From positions 62,001 to 126,000 of the forward strand of contig NZ_VLPL01000005.1 in assembly GCF_007558725.1 (NCBI RefSeq): DNA of 64,000 nucleotides, in the 5' to 3' direction. This stretch comes from Fluviicola chungangensis (GTDB taxonomy: Bacteria > Bacteroidota > Bacteroidia > Flavobacteriales_D > Crocinitomicaceae). Below are positions 9,994 to 58,985 of this stretch, piece by piece. Below the pieces are notes generated by a model. It was not told the DNA's origin, did no database searches, and was given only the letters and a program-made list of their open reading frames with translations. The translations under genes were made by a program, and so were the position numbers. Position 1 is the first letter of the stretch, and every line of letters begins with the position of its first letter.

Positions 9994-11457
9994 TTAATTT
10001 TTTCTTTTAAGAAGAAGGACTTCATCGTTATCCACCAATTTGATCCATTCTTTGGATTGTTGGAAATTCCGGATTTCTACCTGGAAAATAGAATCCCTTA
10101 AAGGATATGGTGTGTCTTTTTTTGCCAGAATCACGTATTCAGCATCCTTTACGATTGGGTACATGTAACAAAAATCACGGTTTGCCAGGTGTGGAACCAA
10201 ATTCGACTGACTGGAAACTACCGCATCTTTCGGAATGAGCTTAAATGCTTCGTAAACCGGTTTCACGTTGTATTCTTTTTTATAGTGGTCCTTTGACAGG
10301 AAATTCAGGTTATTATTTGGAGCATACAGGTATTGATGGCTCAATCGTTTATTCGTCATAACCAGTGCCAAAACAACCAGAATCCCTCCTGCTACACTTT
10401 TAAATGACTCTTTTTTCAGTTTATCAACGACTTCAAAAACACCGATTGCCAAAATCGGTGTGAATTCAATACAATAATGAAATCCTGCTCCCCAGATTGC
10501 CATTGAATCGTGAAATAATTTTTGGAAAAATATCGGAATGAGCATCAGCAAATAAGCCGGACGGAAAAGCAGTAAAGCTATTCCCGAAAATAAAAGAAAT
10601 TTAAGTAGATCGGATTTGGTATTATCACCCATAGAATCTCCATTGAAATTAGAAACCATCAATTGGAACGAATCTACCGGGTGGACAATTAAATATGAGA
10701 TCGCTTCAGGCATTGTCGCTCCCAGAACACTGTAATCAAAGTGTGGATAAATGCCGTCCGCAGCAAGAGCCGGCATCACGAATTTCATCAGGATCACAAA
10801 ATAAAGCAGCGAGACAAATCCGTAAATAATGAAAAAGAAGCGCCATTTCCCTTCTTTCCAATTCAAGATGGAAAGCCCGAAGCAAACAAAAGCAATCCAC
10901 AAAGCGCTGTTTTCTTTCCCCAACCAAAGCAGCACCACAAAAAATGCCGCCCATTTCATTTTCCGTTCTTTGGTAAAAACGAACAGCCAGGGAACGAGCA
11001 TCGCTACCACCACACTGTCGTGAAAATCATATGATAAAGCAGTATAAACTCCAAAGAACGAGTAGAAAAACAGCATGGCATTCATTGCCAAAATTCTATT
11101 CTCCCTGAAATAACGATAAACTCCCAATCCTCCGAAAAGGATACTCACAATTTGAAAGATCAGCAAGGTATAGGAACCAAAAATCCACACAAAGGGAGAA
11201 TAAAGCATGAGGTAAAAATCAAAATGGTCCCCCATCAAATTTTGAGGCTCCATTTTAAAAACGCCGCTGTCGTTCCATTGAAAGTGCGAATAATCATACA
11301 AGGCATTCGAGTAAATCCCCAAATCAAGCGCATAAGTGCGGAATAAAAAGTGATTTACCAGCGAAACTAGTGAATAAATGATTGCAAATGCAAGTACGAT
11401 CAGATATTTTTCCGGTACTTGTTTAAAGGTGTTATATGTGCTATTCAATCGATTCAT
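9994..11457 (-). CDS. DUF2079 family polytopic membrane protein
   Basis: A 487-residue protein with roughly ten hydrophobic helices. The N-terminal region carries the family's conserved patch (TYALDLGIYSNALYDYSHF, then MGDHFDFYLMLYSPFVW). A second conserved patch lies in the middle (YDFHDSVVVAMLVPWLFVF). The C-terminal 110 residues form a soluble domain (VSSQSNLVPHLANRDFCYMYP). The topology is that of GT-C-fold glycosyltransferase relatives, but no activity is established for DUF2079. The last 34 codons have a diverged second copy at 7670-7771. The start ATG at 11457 is the only reasonable one. Confidence 0.85.
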   Translation of the reverse strand: MNRLNSTYNTFKQVPEKYLIVLAFAIIYSLVSLVNHFLFRTYALDLGIYSNALYDYSHFQWNDSGVFKMEPQNLMGDHFDFYLMLYSPFVWIFGSYTLLIFQIVSILFGGLGVYRYFRENRILAMNAMLFFYSFFGVYTALSYDFHDSVVVAMLVPWLFVFTKERKMKWAAFFVVLLWLGKENSALWIAFVCFGLSILNWKEGKWRFFFIIYGFVSLLYFVILMKFVMPALAADGIYPHFDYSVLGATMPEAISYLIVHPVDSFQLMVSNFNGDSMGDNTKSDLLKFLLFSGIALLLFRPAYLLMLIPIFFQKLFHDSMAIWGAGFHYCIEFTPILAIGVFEVVDKLKKESFKSVAGGILVVLALVMTNKRLSHQYLYAPNNNLNFLSKDHYKKEYNVKPVYEAFKLIPKDAVVSSQSNLVPHLANRDFCYMYPIVKDAEYVILAKKDTPYPLRDSIFQVEIRNFQQSKEWIKLVDNDEVLLLKRKN

Positions 11458-53606: not shown

Positions 53607-54230
53607 ATGATGGAATCAAATACACTATCCGAATTCAAATCCTCTAAAGAACTCAGAGAGAAACTCACCGCTCTTGGTTTTGCAAAAACATTTGACGAGG
53701 GAGAGATCATCCTGAATGAGAATGCTTATATCAAAGCCATTCCGATCGTCACCAAGGGAAGCATCAAAGTGATGCGAACGGATGAAGACGGGAGGGAAAT
53801 TTTGCTTTATTATATCAAACCAGGCGAAAGCTGCATCATGTCTTTTTTAGGTGGAATCCATCACGACACCAGCAAGGTGAAGGCAATTGCCGAAGAAGAT
53901 TCGGAAATTTTATTCATCCCCATCGATAAGGTCGGTTTGCTGATTAAAGACTATCCGGAATGGCTTGACTTTATATTCCGCCTCTATCATAAACGCTTTG
54001 AAGAACTATTAGAAGTAGTCAATGCCGTTGCTTTTAAAAAAATGGACGAACGTCTTTTAAACCTGCTTCAAAAAAAAGGAGAACTCACGGGAAGTAAAGT
54101 GCTTTCCGTAACCCATGAGCAATTAGCCAACGAGTTAGGCACTGCTCGTGTAGTTGTTTCGAGACTGCTTAAACACATGGAAGATCAGGGCCTGGTTAAA
54201 TTAGGTCGAAATAAAGTTGCGCTTTTGTAA
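53607..54230 (+). CDS. Crp/Fnr-family transcriptional regulator
   Basis: A 207-residue regulator if started at the ATG at 53607; a GTG at 53562 would add 15 residues, but TTGCTTTG, a weak -7 element, falls inside that stretch. A cyclic-nucleotide-binding-like beta-barrel (30-120; AYIKAIPIVTKGSIKVMRTD, LLYYIKPGESCIMSFLGGI) is followed by a dimer helix and an HTH (155-207; VLSVTHEQLANELGTARVVV, SRLLKHMEDQGLVKLGR). No Fe-S Cys cluster is visible. One Cys (ESCIMS) could sense reactive sulfur, an inference. It precedes the persulfide genes and probably controls them through dyads at 54227 and 54690. Confidence 0.9.
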   Translation: MMESNTLSEFKSSKELREKLTALGFAKTFDEGEIILNENAYIKAIPIVTKGSIKVMRTDEDGREILLYYIKPGESCIMSFLGGIHHDTSKVKAIAEEDSEILFIPIDKVGLLIKDYPEWLDFIFRLYHKRFEELLEVVNAVAFKKMDERLLNLLQKKGELTGSKVLSVTHEQLANELGTARVVVSRLLKHMEDQGLVKLGRNKVALL

Positions 54231-54270
54231 CAAAGGTTGCTGTGCAGCAAGTTCCATTGTCTGACTTTTG
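54227..54270 (+). promoter_or_regulatory. Candidate Crp/Fnr operator and promoter before the TauE/SafE gene
   Basis: GTAACAAAGGTTGCTGT (54227-54243) is a GTAAC-N4-GTTGC dyad that overlaps the stop of the regulator gene. Exactly 36 bases after its first base lies GACTTTTG (54263-54270), close to TAnnTTTG. A second dyad, TTGCT-GTGC-AGCAA, overlaps it at 54237-54250 and has the 5-4-5 layout of Fnr boxes. The layout repeats at 54690-54733. An operator centre near -42 would fit class II activation. Confidence 0.55.
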
Positions 54271-54312
54271 TGGTGAAATATTTATTCGCTAACGAAATCA
54301 ACACCTGTTAAG

Positions 54313-54681
54313 ATGGAAATACAAAACGCACTGATATTGGGAACCATTGGTTTAGCCGCAGGATTACTAGGAGGTATGCTGGGTCTTGGCGGGGCAATCA
54401 TCATTATTCCCGCCTTAATGCTTTTTCTCGGTTATTCTCAGCAATTGGCACAAGGAACGGCATTGATCATGATGGTACTTCCGGTTGGAGCATTAGCAGC
54501 ATTCCAATATTATCAAAAGGGATTTGTTGACATCAAAGCCGCTTTAATCCTCGCAGGATTTTTCTTTGTTGGAGGTTATTTCGGCGCCAAGTTTGCCACA
54601 CAACTTCCACAGGAAATCCTGAAGAAAGTATTTGCCGTAATGCTCGTAGGAATTGCCCTCAAAATGTGGTTCCAAAAATAA
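54313..54681 (+). CDS. Half-size TauE/SafE-family sulfite/anion exporter
   Basis: A 122-residue protein with about four membrane helices. It carries one copy of the TauE/SafE signature (GLAAGLLGGMLGLGGAIIII at 15-34, ending PALMLFLGYSQQLAQGTAL). Full-length members have 240-270 residues and two such halves, so this one should work as a dimer. In persulfide clusters TauE-like proteins are thought to export sulfite or other small sulfur anions. It follows the Crp/Fnr gene and precedes the persulfide dioxygenase. Confidence 0.88.
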   Translation: MEIQNALILGTIGLAAGLLGGMLGLGGAIIIIPALMLFLGYSQQLAQGTALIMMVLPVGALAAFQYYQKGFVDIKAALILAGFFFVGGYFGAKFATQLPQEILKKVFAVMLVGIALKMWFQK

Positions 54682-54689
54682 TCCGGTAT

Positions 54690-54733
54690 GTAACAAAAGT
54701 CACTGTATCACTCAAAAGAAGCCGGTAATTTTG
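54690..54733 (+). promoter_or_regulatory. Candidate Crp/Fnr operator and promoter before the persulfide dioxygenase gene
   Basis: GTAACAAAAGTCACTGT (54690-54706) matches 14 of 17 bases of the copy at 54227. It starts exactly 36 bases before TAATTTTG (54726-54733), a perfect -7 element. The ATG follows 21 bases later. The same spacing at both sites argues for a shared regulator. Confidence 0.6.
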
Positions 54734-54754: not shown

Positions 54755-56104
54755 ATGGAAATCAAACAATTCGAAGACAAAAACTTAGCACATTATTCTT
54801 ACGCAATTCTCAGCAATGGAGAAATCGCCCTGATCGATCCGGCAAGAAATCCACAACCTTATTACGACTTCGCCAAACAGCACGATGCAAAAATCACTGC
54901 GGTAATTGAAACACATCCCCACGCAGATTTTATAAGCAGTCATTTGGAAATTCATGAAGCAACTCATGCGAAAATTTACGTAAGCAAACTGCTTGGCGCC
55001 GAATACACCCATCAATCCTTTGATGATGGAGACACCATCAAACTGGGGCACAGCTTCTTAAAAGCACTCAATACACCTGGTCATTCACCGGATAGTATCA
55101 GTATCCTCGCAATCGATGAAAACGGAAAAGAACAAGCTGTTTTCACAGGAGATACTTTGTTTATAGGTGATTGCGGGCGTCCTGATTTAAGGGAACAGGC
55201 CGGAGCCATTACTTCACCGCGTACCGAATTAGCCAAGCAGATGTACCATTCACTTAGGGACAAACTTATCACACTGCCTGATTCCGTAATTGTTTACCCA
55301 GCACATGGAGCCGGAAGTTTATGCGGAAAAGGATTGAGCGAACAAAACAGCAGTACGATCGGTGCCGAAAAAAGGAGTAATTGGTGTTTACAGCCAATGA
55401 GTGAAGAAACATTTGTTGAAGCGTTGTTAGCTGATCAGCCATTTGTTCCGAAATACTTCCCTTTTGATGTCGGCATCAATAAAAAGGGGGCTGAATCCTT
55501 TCAAAAAAGTATTTCAAAAGTGCAACACAAAGAACCCGTTACTTGCCCTGATTGCGCAAGTACGCTCAATCCGGCTATTTTGATCATTGATACAAGGCCA
55601 CAAGAGCAATTCAAAAAAGCACACTTGAAAAATGCCATCCATTTAATGGACGATACCAAATTCGAAACATGGTTGGGAAGTATAGTCAATCCGGAAGAAC
55701 CTTTTTATCTCATCGCGGAAAACGAAACAGCATTGAATCAACTCATTGAGCGGGCTTCCAAAATCGGATATGAAACGCAAATTGCACTCGCTTTTGTATC
55801 GGACTATGGAAATGAAACTTCTCACACATTCGATACGGAATATTTCAAAAACCATCCGGATGAATACACCATAGTAGACGTACGAAATCCTTCCGAGGTG
55901 AAAACACGCCGCATTTTCGAACAGTCGCTTGCCATTCCATTGTATGAACTAAGGGAGCGCTGTCATGAAATTCCGACTGACAAACCCATTGTTGTGCATT
56001 GTGCCGCCGGATATCGCAGTGCCGCTGGAAGCAGTATCATCCAATCAAACATTCAGAATGCTTCACACGTAATTGACTTGGGTGAAGCAGTAAAAACTTT
56101 TTAA
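54755..56104 (+). CDS. CstB-like persulfide dioxygenase with pseudo-rhodanese and rhodanese domains
   Basis: A 449-residue protein started at MEIKQFEDKNLAHYSY (54755); codons upstream in frame cover the -7 element and are excluded. The metallo-beta-lactamase-fold persulfide dioxygenase (1-255) shows iron ligands H54 and H56 (with D58) in THPHADF, H110, D133 and H184, and C190 in HGAGSLCGKG. A rhodanese-like domain (260-355) lacks the active Cys but opens with C264-P-D-C267. An active rhodanese (360-449) has C416-A-A-G-Y-R. This order and length match CstB of Staphylococcus aureus, which oxidises persulfides and makes thiosulfate. Cytosolic. Confidence 0.92.
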   Translation: MEIKQFEDKNLAHYSYAILSNGEIALIDPARNPQPYYDFAKQHDAKITAVIETHPHADFISSHLEIHEATHAKIYVSKLLGAEYTHQSFDDGDTIKLGHSFLKALNTPGHSPDSISILAIDENGKEQAVFTGDTLFIGDCGRPDLREQAGAITSPRTELAKQMYHSLRDKLITLPDSVIVYPAHGAGSLCGKGLSEQNSSTIGAEKRSNWCLQPMSEETFVEALLADQPFVPKYFPFDVGINKKGAESFQKSISKVQHKEPVTCPDCASTLNPAILIIDTRPQEQFKKAHLKNAIHLMDDTKFETWLGSIVNPEEPFYLIAENETALNQLIERASKIGYETQIALAFVSDYGNETSHTFDTEYFKNHPDEYTIVDVRNPSEVKTRRIFEQSLAIPLYELRERCHEIPTDKPIVVHCAAGYRSAAGSSIIQSNIQNASHVIDLGEAVKTF

Positions 56105-56115
56105 AACAAAATCAC

Positions 56116-56394
56116 ATGAACATAGAACAACTAATCAAAGAAGGACAAGGCACTATTGTAGATGTCAGAACAATTGCAGAATTTAGAGGTGGAAATGTCG
56201 CAAATTCAATCAACATTCCTTTGCAGGAAATTGAGCACAGATTGGACGAGGTAAAAAACTTAAAACAACCCTTAATCCTTTGCTGTGCTTCCGGTGGAAG
56301 AAGTGGTCAGGCAACCCGGTTTTTATCACATCATGGAATCGAATGTTACAATGGCGGTTCCTGGTTAGATGTCAATTATTTTCAAACACGTTAA
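56116..56394 (+). CDS. Single-domain rhodanese
   Basis: A 92-residue cytosolic rhodanese. IVDVRTIAEFRGGNVANSIN is the N-terminal block. The active loop is C57-A-S-G-G-R-S, with an extra Cys just before (C56). It carries sulfane sulfur as a Cys persulfide, probably for the dioxygenase that ends 11 bases upstream. The next rhodanese gene starts four bases after its stop. Confidence 0.9.
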   Translation: MNIEQLIKEGQGTIVDVRTIAEFRGGNVANSINIPLQEIEHRLDEVKNLKQPLILCCASGGRSGQATRFLSHHGIECYNGGSWLDVNYFQTR

Positions 56395-56398
56395 ACAA

Positions 56399-56719
56399 AT
56401 GATGAATTCACTTAAACAATTGTTGGGCTTGGGACCCAAAACAGATTACGCTCAATTAGTAAAAGACGGTGCCATCATTTTGGATGTCCGAAGCAAAGGA
56501 GAATATGCCGGTGGACATATTAAAGGTTCGATCAACATCAGTTTGGATACTTTGGGAAGTCAATTGAGCAAACTCAAGGACAAAAACAAGCCCATTATCA
56601 CCTGTTGTGCCAGTGGAATGCGAAGTGCTTCTGCAAAAAACATACTGAAATCAAACGGTTATACACAGGTTCACAATGGCGGCGGATGGTATGGGTTACA
56701 AACTAAAATCCGTCAATAA
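56399..56719 (+). CDS. Single-domain rhodanese
   Basis: A 106-residue rhodanese if started at MMNSLKQLLGLGPKTDYAQL (56399), four bases after the upstream stop. An upstream in-frame Met would overlap that gene by 26 bases and is less likely. The blocks are IILDVRSKGEYAGGHIKGSI and active loop C69-C70-A-S-G-M-R-S. It is a paralogue of the preceding rhodanese with the same double Cys. An 81-base gap with a weak CTCGAT/ATCGAG hairpin (56747-56770) follows. Confidence 0.88.
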   Translation: MMNSLKQLLGLGPKTDYAQLVKDGAIILDVRSKGEYAGGHIKGSINISLDTLGSQLSKLKDKNKPIITCCASGMRSASAKNILKSNGYTQVHNGGGWYGLQTKIRQ

Positions 56720-56800
56720 CTTTAAATAAAGTAATACACTACCAAGCTCGATTTTTCTGACAGGATCGAGTTTGGTTTGATTTACTTGCCCATTTATTCT

Positions 56801-57028
56801 ATGAAAGAACGTATCTTAAAAAACTGGACATTTACAAGGGCTCTGTTCCTTATTTTGGGAATCATCATCATTACTCAGTCTGCTTTAAGACACGAATGGG
56901 TTGGTATTTTGTTTGGCAGTTATTTTGCCTCCATGGGACTATTTTCATTCGGATGTGCAAGTGGAAATTGTTACGGAGGAAACTGTGAAGTCAAGCCCGA
57001 AAAATCATCCGGCAAACCCCTCAACTAA
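56801..57028 (+). CDS. Small two-helix membrane protein with Cys-rich tail
   Basis: A 75-residue protein started at MKERILKNWTFTRALFLILG (56801). Two hydrophobic helices (10-30 and 33-50) are followed by a Cys-rich segment, G-C-A-S-G-N-C-Y-G-G-N-C, and a polar tail. The layout recalls the membrane part of YgaP-type rhodaneses (DUF2892), but with three Cys of its own. It sits between rhodanese genes, 11 bases before the rhodanese-thioredoxin lipoprotein. A sulfur relay across the membrane is a reasonable inference. The family is not recognised. Confidence 0.65.
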   Translation: MKERILKNWTFTRALFLILGIIIITQSALRHEWVGILFGSYFASMGLFSFGCASGNCYGGNCEVKPEKSSGKPLN

Positions 57029-57039
57029 TTAGAAGCAAC

Positions 57040-57738
57040 ATGAAAAAAATATACTCAATCTTCCTTTTGGTAACTGTTTTAGTCAGTTGCTCCAATGGAC
57101 AGCCTCAATTCACTCTTTCCGCAAAATCATTTGCAGAAAAAATACAAGAAACACCAAATAGGGTCATTATTGATGTTCGCACACCCGGAGAATTTTCAAG
57201 CGGACATCTTGAAAATGCACTGAATTATGATTGGAACGGCTCCGAATTCGACCAACAAATTGCTTCGTTAGATAAATCAAAACCTGTTTTTGTCTATTGC
57301 CTGAGTGGCGGAAGAAGTAGTGCTGCTGCGGATAAAATGAGATCTGCCGGTTTCAAAGAAGTGTATGAACTCAAAGGTGGAATCATGCAGTGGAGAAGCG
57401 AAAACCTTCCTGAAACAACAAACAATCAGGAGTCGTCTCCAGGGATGAGCGAACAAGCTTTCCAGGCTCTCCTGAATTCGGACAAACTGATTTTGATAGA
57501 TTTTTATGCCGATTGGTGTGTCCCATGCAAAAAAATGGAGCCTTATCTGAATGAAATTTCAACAGAGTTAAAAAATTCGGTCACGGTGATTCGGATCAAC
57601 GTGGAGGAAAATCAAGAGCTTTGCAAAACATTAGGAACAAGTGCCATCCCGGTATTGCAAGTTTACAAGGACAAAAAAATGACCTGGACAACGACGGGTC
57701 TGGTTGAAAAAGAAGAGGTAATGAAGCATTTGAAATAA
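57040..57738 (+). CDS. Lipoprotein rhodanese-thioredoxin fusion
   Basis: A 232-residue lipoprotein (lipobox VSC17). The rhodanese domain (28-128) has IIDVRTPGEFSSGHLENALN and active loop C87-L-S-G-G-R. The thioredoxin domain (133-232) has W159-C-V-P-C163 and cis-Pro in SAIPVLQ. The architecture is that of the protein at 26424-27116, but here lipid-anchored and with a WCVPC motif. It should face the periplasm and could take persulfide sulfur from outside the membrane for the cytosolic rhodaneses. It is the last gene of the island. Confidence 0.9.
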   Translation: MKKIYSIFLLVTVLVSCSNGQPQFTLSAKSFAEKIQETPNRVIIDVRTPGEFSSGHLENALNYDWNGSEFDQQIASLDKSKPVFVYCLSGGRSSAAADKMRSAGFKEVYELKGGIMQWRSENLPETTNNQESSPGMSEQAFQALLNSDKLILIDFYADWCVPCKKMEPYLNEISTELKNSVTVIRINVEENQELCKTLGTSAIPVLQVYKDKKMTWTTTGLVEKEEVMKHLK

Positions 57739-57863: not shown

Positions 57864-58985
57864 ATGAAGACAATACTATCAAGCTTACTCATTTGCATCA
57901 GTTCTTTTTCTTTTGCTCAACCCATTCATCCGAGTGATGAATCACGTAAAATTCAAATCGCAATCCTGTTCGACACTTCAGGAAGTATGAATGGTTTGAT
58001 CGAACAAGCCAAGTCCACTATCTGGAAAATTGTCAATATGGCATCCAAAATGTCGGATAAAGGAAAAACCCCACAGCTGGAAATTGCGTTGTATGATTAT
58101 GGAAATGACGAGATCAAAACTCCGAATTGGGTCCGCAAACGCACCGACCTGATCGCCGATTTGGATTCCATTTCCGGACAACTTTTTTCACTCCGGACCA
58201 ATGGCGGATCGGAATACTGTGCGGCCGTTATCGAATCTTCGATCAATGACCTCAAATGGTCTCCCAATCCAACAGACCTTCGATTAATCTATATCGCAGG
58301 AAATGAGCCGTTCAACCAGGGACCGATCGATTATAAGAAAATCCTGAAAATTGCCGCAAGCAAAGACATTATCGTAAATACGATCTATTGCGGGCCATAC
58401 GATCAGGGAGTAAAAGAATTTTGGTACGACGGAGCTCAGCAAACCCAGGGATCGTATTTCAATATCAATTCCAACGAGGAAATCAGACACATTGATACGC
58501 CTTATGACAAAGAAATTATCTCTGTAAACGATTCATTGAATAAAACCTATGTCGGGTACGGAAGAGAAGGCAACTACCGTTCCAATAAACAAGCCGAAGA
58601 AGATCAGAATGCCAGTTTGAAAGGATATGCCGTAATGAGTGAACGCGCTGCAGCCAAATCGAAATCCAATTATAAAAATGCCAATTGGGATTTAGTTGAT
58701 GGAATAGACCAGGGAAATGTAAACCTGGACAGTATCCGGGTGGAAGATCTTCCGGCAGAACTGAAAGGAAAATCCAAAGAGGAACAAACGAAGTATATCG
58801 AACAGAAGAAAGCAGACCGGACACGTTATCAGAATCAGATCGGGGAGCTTTCCAAAAAACGGGAAGAATACATCGCTGAAGAAATGAAAAAAATCAACGA
58901 ATCGGATGCAAAAAAGGATCTTGGATCAGCAATCATTGAATCGTTAGTTGCTACCGCTCAAAAAACAGGATTCACGGTTGAATAA
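57864..58985 (+). CDS. Exported von Willebrand factor A domain protein
   Basis: A 373-residue protein with a signal peptide (to SFAQ, residue 19). A vWA domain (30-225) shows the metal-site motif D-T-S-G-S-M in IQIAILFDTSGSMNGLIEQA and, later, GGSEYCAAVIESSI and RLIYIAGNEPFNQGP. The C-terminal 140 residues are Lys/Glu/Asn-rich and coiled-coil-like (ERAAAKSKSNYKNANWDLVD, KGKSKEEQTKYIEQKKADR). vWA proteins bind partners through a divalent metal; the partner is unknown. It appears monocistronic, with a terminator at 58992-59020. Confidence 0.85.
   Translation: MKTILSSLLICISSFSFAQPIHPSDESRKIQIAILFDTSGSMNGLIEQAKSTIWKIVNMASKMSDKGKTPQLEIALYDYGNDEIKTPNWVRKRTDLIADLDSISGQLFSLRTNGGSEYCAAVIESSINDLKWSPNPTDLRLIYIAGNEPFNQGPIDYKKILKIAASKDIIVNTIYCGPYDQGVKEFWYDGAQQTQGSYFNINSNEEIRHIDTPYDKEIISVNDSLNKTYVGYGREGNYRSNKQAEEDQNASLKGYAVMSERAAAKSKSNYKNANWDLVDGIDQGNVNLDSIRVEDLPAELKGKSKEEQTKYIEQKKADRTRYQNQIGELSKKREEYIAEEMKKINESDAKKDLGSAIIESLVATAQKTGFTVE

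Follow-up and report, generated by a model that had tools for sequence, protein, structure and literature searches.

Control of persulfide dioxygenase, rhodanese or transporter genes is known for CstR, SqrR/BigR, FisR, regulators of the MarR types, and OxyR. All of these belong to other protein families than the regulator described here; to our knowledge none of them is a Crp/Fnr protein, and we are not aware that the Crp/Fnr family is known for persulfide sensing. Within this family, the cyanobacterial nitrogen activator NtcA binds GTAN8TAC at about −41.5 in class II position, and at one of its promoters 22 nucleotides separate this operator from the −10 box (PMC3898017). For HcpR2 the operator GTAACnnnnGTTAC was reported (PMC1274295), and HcpR was described as a heme and NO sensor with Met68 (PMC12750200). 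PgRsp of P. gingivalis, a protein of 207 amino acids with Cys76, Met78, and His85, binds heme and was called redox-sensing; as its targets, the hmu operon, bcp, and its own gene were reported (PMC6955866). In searches of open-access papers, we found neither a Crp/Fnr regulon for persulfide genes nor any described persulfide-gene regulator in Bacteroidota, and the main text of a Flavobacterium transcript-start paper contains no mention of Crp, Fnr or GTAAC.

In this study, we analyzed a stretch of 64,000 nucleotides from Fluviicola chungangensis (the window), in which a Crp/Fnr-type gene adjoins genes for persulfide metabolism. Compared with NtcA, the recognition helix is alike (R-V-T-V-T-R in NtcA, R-V-V-V-S-R here), the left half and the spacing of the operator are matched, and the 22-bp gap is identical, whereas NtcA has nitrogen-gene targets, another effector, and comes from another phylum. 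The HcpR2 operator has a near match in the window and exact matches in some distant relatives (e.g., locus L060), a resemblance of the operator only; position 181 in CRP numbering is Pro in HcpR2 and Val here. PgRsp is similar in size (207 amino acids), in residues C76, M78, and H85, and in the template 3dv8, a likeness of length and residues; PgRsp may belong to this regulator group, but its reported targets are not sulfur genes. The operator type, the helix rule, and the class II geometry are features already known. An earlier sequence-only reading of the window had proposed a dedicated, sulfur-responsive Crp/Fnr circuit at this locus. We consider it probable that the regulator is a dedicated class II activator of the adjoining sulfur genes and that its signal is a reactive sulfur species.

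Materials and methods

Related loci were collected by two routes. With the persulfide-dioxygenase-like (MBL) gene, 77 loci were obtained from relatives; here, a site had to match at least six of the eight fixed bases with one half perfect, to carry TTTG at +40, and to lie within 200 bases upstream. With the regulator, 199 genomes of the order were searched, of which at least 136 gave a match at E ≤ 1e-20; from this search 29 loci (L088–L116) were taken, which together with 60 chosen regions made 89. The pooled set comprised the window, the 77 MBL loci, and these 89 (167 in total); the two collections may share species, and the rows are not all independent. Sites were counted in the 128 loci with exactly one helix type, while 39 were dropped because they had no homologue at E 1e-15 or because the helix was incomplete or mixed. 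For covariation, 91 regulators with a site were available, 69 of them with a clear A or G majority, and T helices were pooled with V helices. Also, 40 whole genomes including the host genome were scanned for GTAACAAARGTNRCTGT.

Results and discussion

Layout of the locus

The order of the genes is Crp/Fnr regulator, site 1, half-size TauE/SafE, site 2, MBL-rhodanese protein, two single rhodaneses, and a hairpin. The following features were assigned:

53607–54230, + strand: Crp/Fnr-family regulator, 207 amino acids (Pfam cNMP_binding 3.8e-13, HTH_Crp_2 8.2e-12)
54227–54240, + strand: operator 1, GTAAC-AAAG-GTTGC, overlapping the regulator stop codon; kept upstream of TauE in relatives
54241–54243, + strand: TGT at the −33 position of promoter 1; putative role, from position frequencies in relatives
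54263–54270, + strand: −7 element GACTTTTG of promoter 1, TAnnTTTG-type; predicted start at about 54275
54313–54681, + strand: half-size TauE/SafE-type membrane protein, 122 amino acids (Pfam TauE 1.5e-21)
54690–54703, + strand: operator 2, GTAAC-AAAA-GTCAC; kept upstream of the MBL gene in relatives
54704–54706, + strand: TGT at the −33 position of promoter 2; putative role, from position frequencies in relatives
54726–54733, + strand: −7 element TAATTTTG of promoter 2, TAnnTTTG-type; predicted start at about 54738
54755–56104, + strand: persulfide-dioxygenase-like (CstB-like) protein, 449 amino acids, MBL and rhodanese domains (Pfam Lactamase_B 5.7e-17; Rhodanese 5.8e-16, two stretches)
56116–56394, + strand: single-domain rhodanese (Pfam Rhodanese 2.8e-12)
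56402–56719, + strand: single-domain rhodanese (Pfam Rhodanese 5.3e-19)
56741–56776, + strand: 15-pair hairpin, from a search for terminator-like sites

The regulator gene runs from the ATG at 53607 to a TAA stop codon at 54228–54230, and operator 1 starts at 54227, the last base ahead of this stop. Both Pfam domains score above their cut-offs and the fold matches Crp structures, which places the protein in the Crp/Fnr superfamily. Its AlphaFold model has a pLDDT of 92.3 with an input of 94 sequences (70.9 with 4 sequences), and the best fold match is 3dv8. Identity with described members was tried and rejected for cAMP-type CRP (equivalog score 50.3 bits vs. 266), for NtcA (NCBIfam equivalog score 39.8 bits vs. 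244.95), and for HcpR, as hcp is missing: no match to Prismane (PF03063) was obtained in the host genome in a search that was positive in 5 of 14 control genomes.

The TauE/SafE protein is called half-size because its match spans positions 3–110 of the 237-position Pfam profile. The CstB-like gene begins with the ATG at 54755. Its product combines an MBL domain followed by rhodanese domains with similarity to solved structures, namely 3tp9 (5.5e-68), 3r2u (6.4e-55), which we take to be CstB of S. aureus, and the human persulfide dioxygenase ETHE1, 4chl (1.5e-17), and is thereby a putative CstB-like persulfide dioxygenase; with the NCBIfam Blh model it scores 45.9, far below the cut-off of 625. 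The hairpin is a possible operon end, although a weak indication of one because the region holds five terminator-like sites vs. 3.5 expected. Located 3′ of the hairpin (56801–57738) are genes for a small protein without Pfam match and for a rhodanese-thioredoxin fusion, which may lie outside the circuit or be reached by read-through, since no composite site precedes them. Further on, 57864–58985 encodes a protein of 373 amino acids without Pfam match, with a DTSGSM motif that by eye resembles those of von Willebrand factor A domains. No RNA element was matched by Rfam at gathering thresholds between 53000 and 58000.

Two operator-promoter modules

The two 17-mers described in the sequence-only reading are present at 54227 and 54690, and the TTTTG-type −7 elements that it placed 36 bases after the motif start are indeed found at 54263 and 54726, 22 bases past the 14-bp core. 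Both elements are of the type TAnnTTTG, the −7 consensus for Bacteroidota promoters (PMC7366714). The centre of the dyad would lie near −41.5, and the gap to the −7 element is the same 22 bp at both sites and fixed in relatives, as in class II activation. The transcript starts proposed earlier, 54276 and 54739, are near to what this geometry predicts, but centring at −41.5 gives about 54275 and 54738, one base off. Similarly, the proposed motif GTAAC-N4-GTYRC holds as a dyad, but T-GTAAC-N4-GTNRC-TGT describes close relatives better and GTRAC-N4-GTYAC distant ones. The frequencies of the TGT at the −33 position are T 0.75, G 0.92, and T 0.92 over 36 sites. A sigma-70 reading of the promoters was uninformative (8 sites vs. 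7.7 expected). Upstream of 53607 no site passing the composite rule was found that would indicate autoregulation of the regulator in the window, the plus-strand sites being those at 54227 and 54690 only.

The window on its own leaves the question undecided, because a likeness of 14 in 17 bases is common, the loose 17-mer count is ordinary, and another offset does as well as +40. Between 53001 and 58000, 56 pairs of 17-mers agree at 14 or more positions, this pair included, and many of these represent one match counted in several registers. When up to three mismatches are allowed, the degenerate 17-mer matches the window 3 times (1.26 expected), a number also reached in 14 of 100 shuffles; the third match, at 10165–10181 with two mismatches and without TTTG at +40, is probably due to chance. 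For the dyad with TTTG at +40, a first-order Markov null predicts 0.23 occurrences per 64 kb; the window has three, namely the two plus-strand sites and the reverse reading of site 2. Offset 55, however, likewise gives three composite matches, and several other offsets give one. A chance likeness of the two 17-mers, for which these window figures speak, is nevertheless contradicted by conservation and exact spacing in relatives and can be given practically no weight; it is the relatives that rule chance out, not the window.

In the host genome, strand-matches to the bare 14-mer GTAACN4GTNRC number 52, fewer than the 167 of its reversed control. Reading the surroundings of all 52 matches revealed TTTG at +40 at both window sites and at C16:235465 only, the latter within an open frame of 233 amino acids. 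A large regulon of exact dyads in this genome was therefore rejected, the dyad being rarer than the control and the two window sites being the only ones outside long frames with TTTG at +40. Weaker dyads (6–7 of the 8 fixed bases) with TTTG at +40 arose by chance near bare-dyad matches in L001, L128, and L133.

Conservation in relatives

Before a spacing rule was applied to the MBL loci, the best upstream dyad was repeatedly located 40 bases ahead of a TTTG; among Markov-shuffled upstream regions, 0.3% have a best dyad match of 9 of 10 bases and 6% one of 8 of 10. Under the rule, which places TTTG at exactly +40, 28 of the 77 MBL loci have an operator, and the other offsets from 30 to 55 give 0–2 loci each, except for 7 loci at offset 49. 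All 28 relatives with a site have A at +37, the second base of the −7 element; as this base lies outside the search rule, the TTTG is very likely the −7 element. The 128 pooled loci, searched over their whole length on both strands for at least seven of the eight fixed bases plus TTTG, contain 132 sites at +40, compared with 85 sites in total (mean 3.4) at 25 other offsets between 34 and 59. The scan of whole genomes for GTAACAAARGTNRCTGT yielded 11 matches, spread over 8 genomes, while the reversed pattern gave 2. TTTG at +40 accompanies 8 of the 11, two being the window's own, and all of these 8 are upstream of genes judged by sequence to be TauE-like, MBL or rhodanese genes. Two of the remaining three have no frame of at least 60 amino acids within 300 bases, and one lies upstream of a gene whose product is of another kind and looks secreted. 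Conservation of motif and spacing in orthologous loci, on which the sequence-only reading had staked its proposal in advance, was thus found (28 of 77 MBL loci, 132 sites, 8 of 11 scan matches). The circuit is patchy, because, of 14 genomes from the genus (host included), only 3 have an exact match.

The strict spacing also bears on the mode of action. Class II activation at Crp-type promoters needs a fixed spacing, while repression tolerates other positions. A repressor covering the −33 region, from which sulfur species would release it, would fit an operator abutting the −33 position, and in other families repression is common among persulfide regulators. However, the single 22-bp spacing to the −7 element in 28 of 77 loci and at 132 sites is what class II activation needs, so that we regard repression as quite improbable compared with activation.

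The occurrence of the site follows the regulator. If the regulator is at least 65% identical, 16 of 19 loci have a site upstream of the MBL gene, and 11 of the 13 MBL-fetched loci that hold TauE together with such a regulator have one upstream of TauE. In L010, L020, and L081, no site upstream of the MBL gene passes the rule despite a close regulator; L010 and L020 have degenerate forms by eye, and in L081 a site lies just 3′ of the regulator. The five Mucilaginibacter loci (regulator 57% identical) have no MBL-upstream site, a site being located at the regulator's stop codon instead. With distant regulators (30–46%), 5 of 16 loci have the MBL-upstream site and 11 do not. A GTAAC or GTGAC half-site coincides with the stop codon of the regulator in 22 of 40 MBL-fetched loci with a regulator (13 of 19 with close, 5 of 5 with 57% identical, and 4 of 16 with distant regulators), which may be plain space economy between regulator and first target. 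One record (L028) is labelled as a gammaproteobacterial MAG, yet its locus is Bacteroidota-like and resembles the Flavisolibacter locus L029, possibly due to mislabelling or mis-binning.

Among the 37 MBL loci without a regulator in the fetched stretch, 7 have the site. These could mean that another DNA-binding protein uses the dyad and that the Crp/Fnr gene is a bystander. However, all 7 genomes hold a homologue elsewhere (E ≤ 1e-20, 36–81% identity), one with an in-frame stop, compared with 6 of 24 for loci with neither a local regulator nor the MBL-upstream site (24 of 30 such loci). If 13 of 31 genomes have a homologue, all 7 would do so by chance with a probability of 6.5e-4 (calculated by hand and ignoring kinship; 11 of the 24 are Hymenobacter). 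Also, helix and operator covary (see below), and the two other Crp proteins of the host are only 24–27% identical and have unlike helices (ATETLIR and AKETVIR). A bystander role of the Crp/Fnr gene is hence very improbable.

Downstream genes

In the 89 regulator-fetched loci, 60 of 64 sites are followed by a frame of at least 60 amino acids starting 46–260 bases on. According to Pfam, with overlapping classes, these 60 genes include DUF983 (18), TauE (11), rhodanese (10), YgaP-like TM (9), Lactamase_B (6), Crp (4), thioredoxin (2), and sulfate permease (1). The commonest single family, DUF983, is not a known sulfur family. In L143 (216–684), a DUF983 gene is positioned just ahead of the regulator gene and overlaps its start, and the coordinates of similar frames, for example in L177, L184, and L193, suggest the same arrangement in several other loci. 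Together with the composite sites ahead of DUF983 genes, the overlap in L143 suggests a DUF983-regulator operon under its own control. In distant MBL loci, sites precede genes for full-size TauE (L060, L029), YeeE-type sulfur transport (L060, L062), SulP (L063), and rhodanese (L034). A fatty-acid-hydroxylase-like gene directly 5′ of the MBL gene bears a composite site in L060 (5027–5982) and L062 (5036–6020), from Mesonia and Salegentibacter; such a gene would not be expected in a sulfur regulon (assignment by Pfam for L060).

Recognition helix and operator

The recognition helix of the regulator reads R181-V-V-V-S-R186. Rodionov and colleagues linked residues 180 and 181 of Crp/Fnr superfamily proteins to bases of the operator (PMC1274295). 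In the homologues, R181 is followed by V (81), E (45) or T (2). The third base of the half-site is A 120, G 27, T 31, and C 6 times with V, and G 49, A 23, C 1, and T 1 times with E. By locus, helix and base agree (A with V, G with E) in 60 of 69 cases (Fisher 3.7e-7) and disagree in 9. On a quick tree built without the helix columns, 4–5 independent helix switches were counted, with the operator changing the same way in 3.2 and the opposite way in 0.1 (means); a sign test over these 4–5 switches was not significant. Two Litoribacter loci have GTGAC sites but no local regulator, and their genomes contain REV regulators; L017 and L019 (GTAAC sites) go with RVV regulators, and L011, with mixed sites, also has RVV. 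In L093 and L095, homologues at 69–70% with the helix VRVVITR have a GTGAC-N4-GTCAC site just 3′ of the regulator gene; since they break the simple V-to-A rule, neighboring helix residues may matter too. Taken together, exact spacing, co-occurrence with the regulator, and helix-operator covariation (from few switches) support well, at the level of sequence, the earlier proposal of a local Crp/Fnr circuit in class II position. Counted against the main reading were DUF983 as leading family, the 11 of 16 loci with distant regulators and 5 of 5 Mucilaginibacter loci without MBL-upstream site, and the 9 of 69 misfits in covariation.

A candidate sensing residue

The regulator has a sole cysteine, C76, which is invariant in 129 of 129 homologues (34–100% identity). 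Only seven residues are invariant (G51, Y68, C76, H170, R181, R186, K189), the same seven as in the 94-sequence alignment. Both other Crp proteins of the host have a gap at this position. In the predicted model, a helix (77–84) directly follows C76; the corresponding helix of CRP contacts cAMP. C76 is the leading candidate for the sensor, with sulfur sensing as the leading hypothesis and heme sensing as its rival. As C76 is also invariant where sites precede genes without known sulfur role, it may serve another signal.

The regulator also has M78 and H85. A heme-based redox or gas sensor like PgRsp could use the same operator and class II activation, with the sulfur genes as part of a redox response and no direct sensing of sulfur. 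Such a sensor would fit the equal length of PgRsp and the window protein, each with C76, M78, and H85 (PMC6955866), and 3dv8 as best template for both. However, the targets here are sulfur genes, and in PgRsp single Ala changes at Cys76, Met78 or His85 were reported to leave the heme spectrum unchanged, while heme had no effect on the DNA shift (PMC6955866). We therefore judge a heme sensor unlikely, although it is the strongest competitor of reactive sulfur as the signal. More tentatively, the Bacteroidota group of these Crp/Fnr proteins might form a new class of sulfane-sulfur sensor, an activator in which a persulfide on C76 sets the dimer for DNA binding.

Proposed mechanism and significance

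Operator, spacing, and the matching of regulator and operator are established from comparison of the loci; binding, activation, and transcript starts are predicted. The product of 53607–54230 would be dedicated to activating the sulfur genes that adjoin its own gene. Its dimer would bind the 5-4-5 dyad GTRAC-N4-GTNRC with the centre about 41.5 bases before the transcript start, compensate for the poor −33 element, and contact RNA polymerase in class II fashion. Thereby, two promoters would be switched on, one for the TauE/SafE-type transporter and one for the persulfide dioxygenase and two rhodaneses. The signal would be a reactive sulfur species (sulfide, persulfide or polysulfide); for the label sulfur-responsive, given in the earlier reading, it is the target genes that point this way. 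The least certain step is the reading of the signal, most likely via Cys76, which is invariant and sits where the effector-pocket helix starts.

Very probably, the two modules form a dedicated on-switch for the handling of reactive sulfur. The analysis yields a candidate regulator of persulfide genes for Bacteroidota, together with its operator, promoter geometry, a rule connecting helix residue and operator base, and a candidate cysteine, and the composite motif may be used to predict the regulon in other Bacteroidota.
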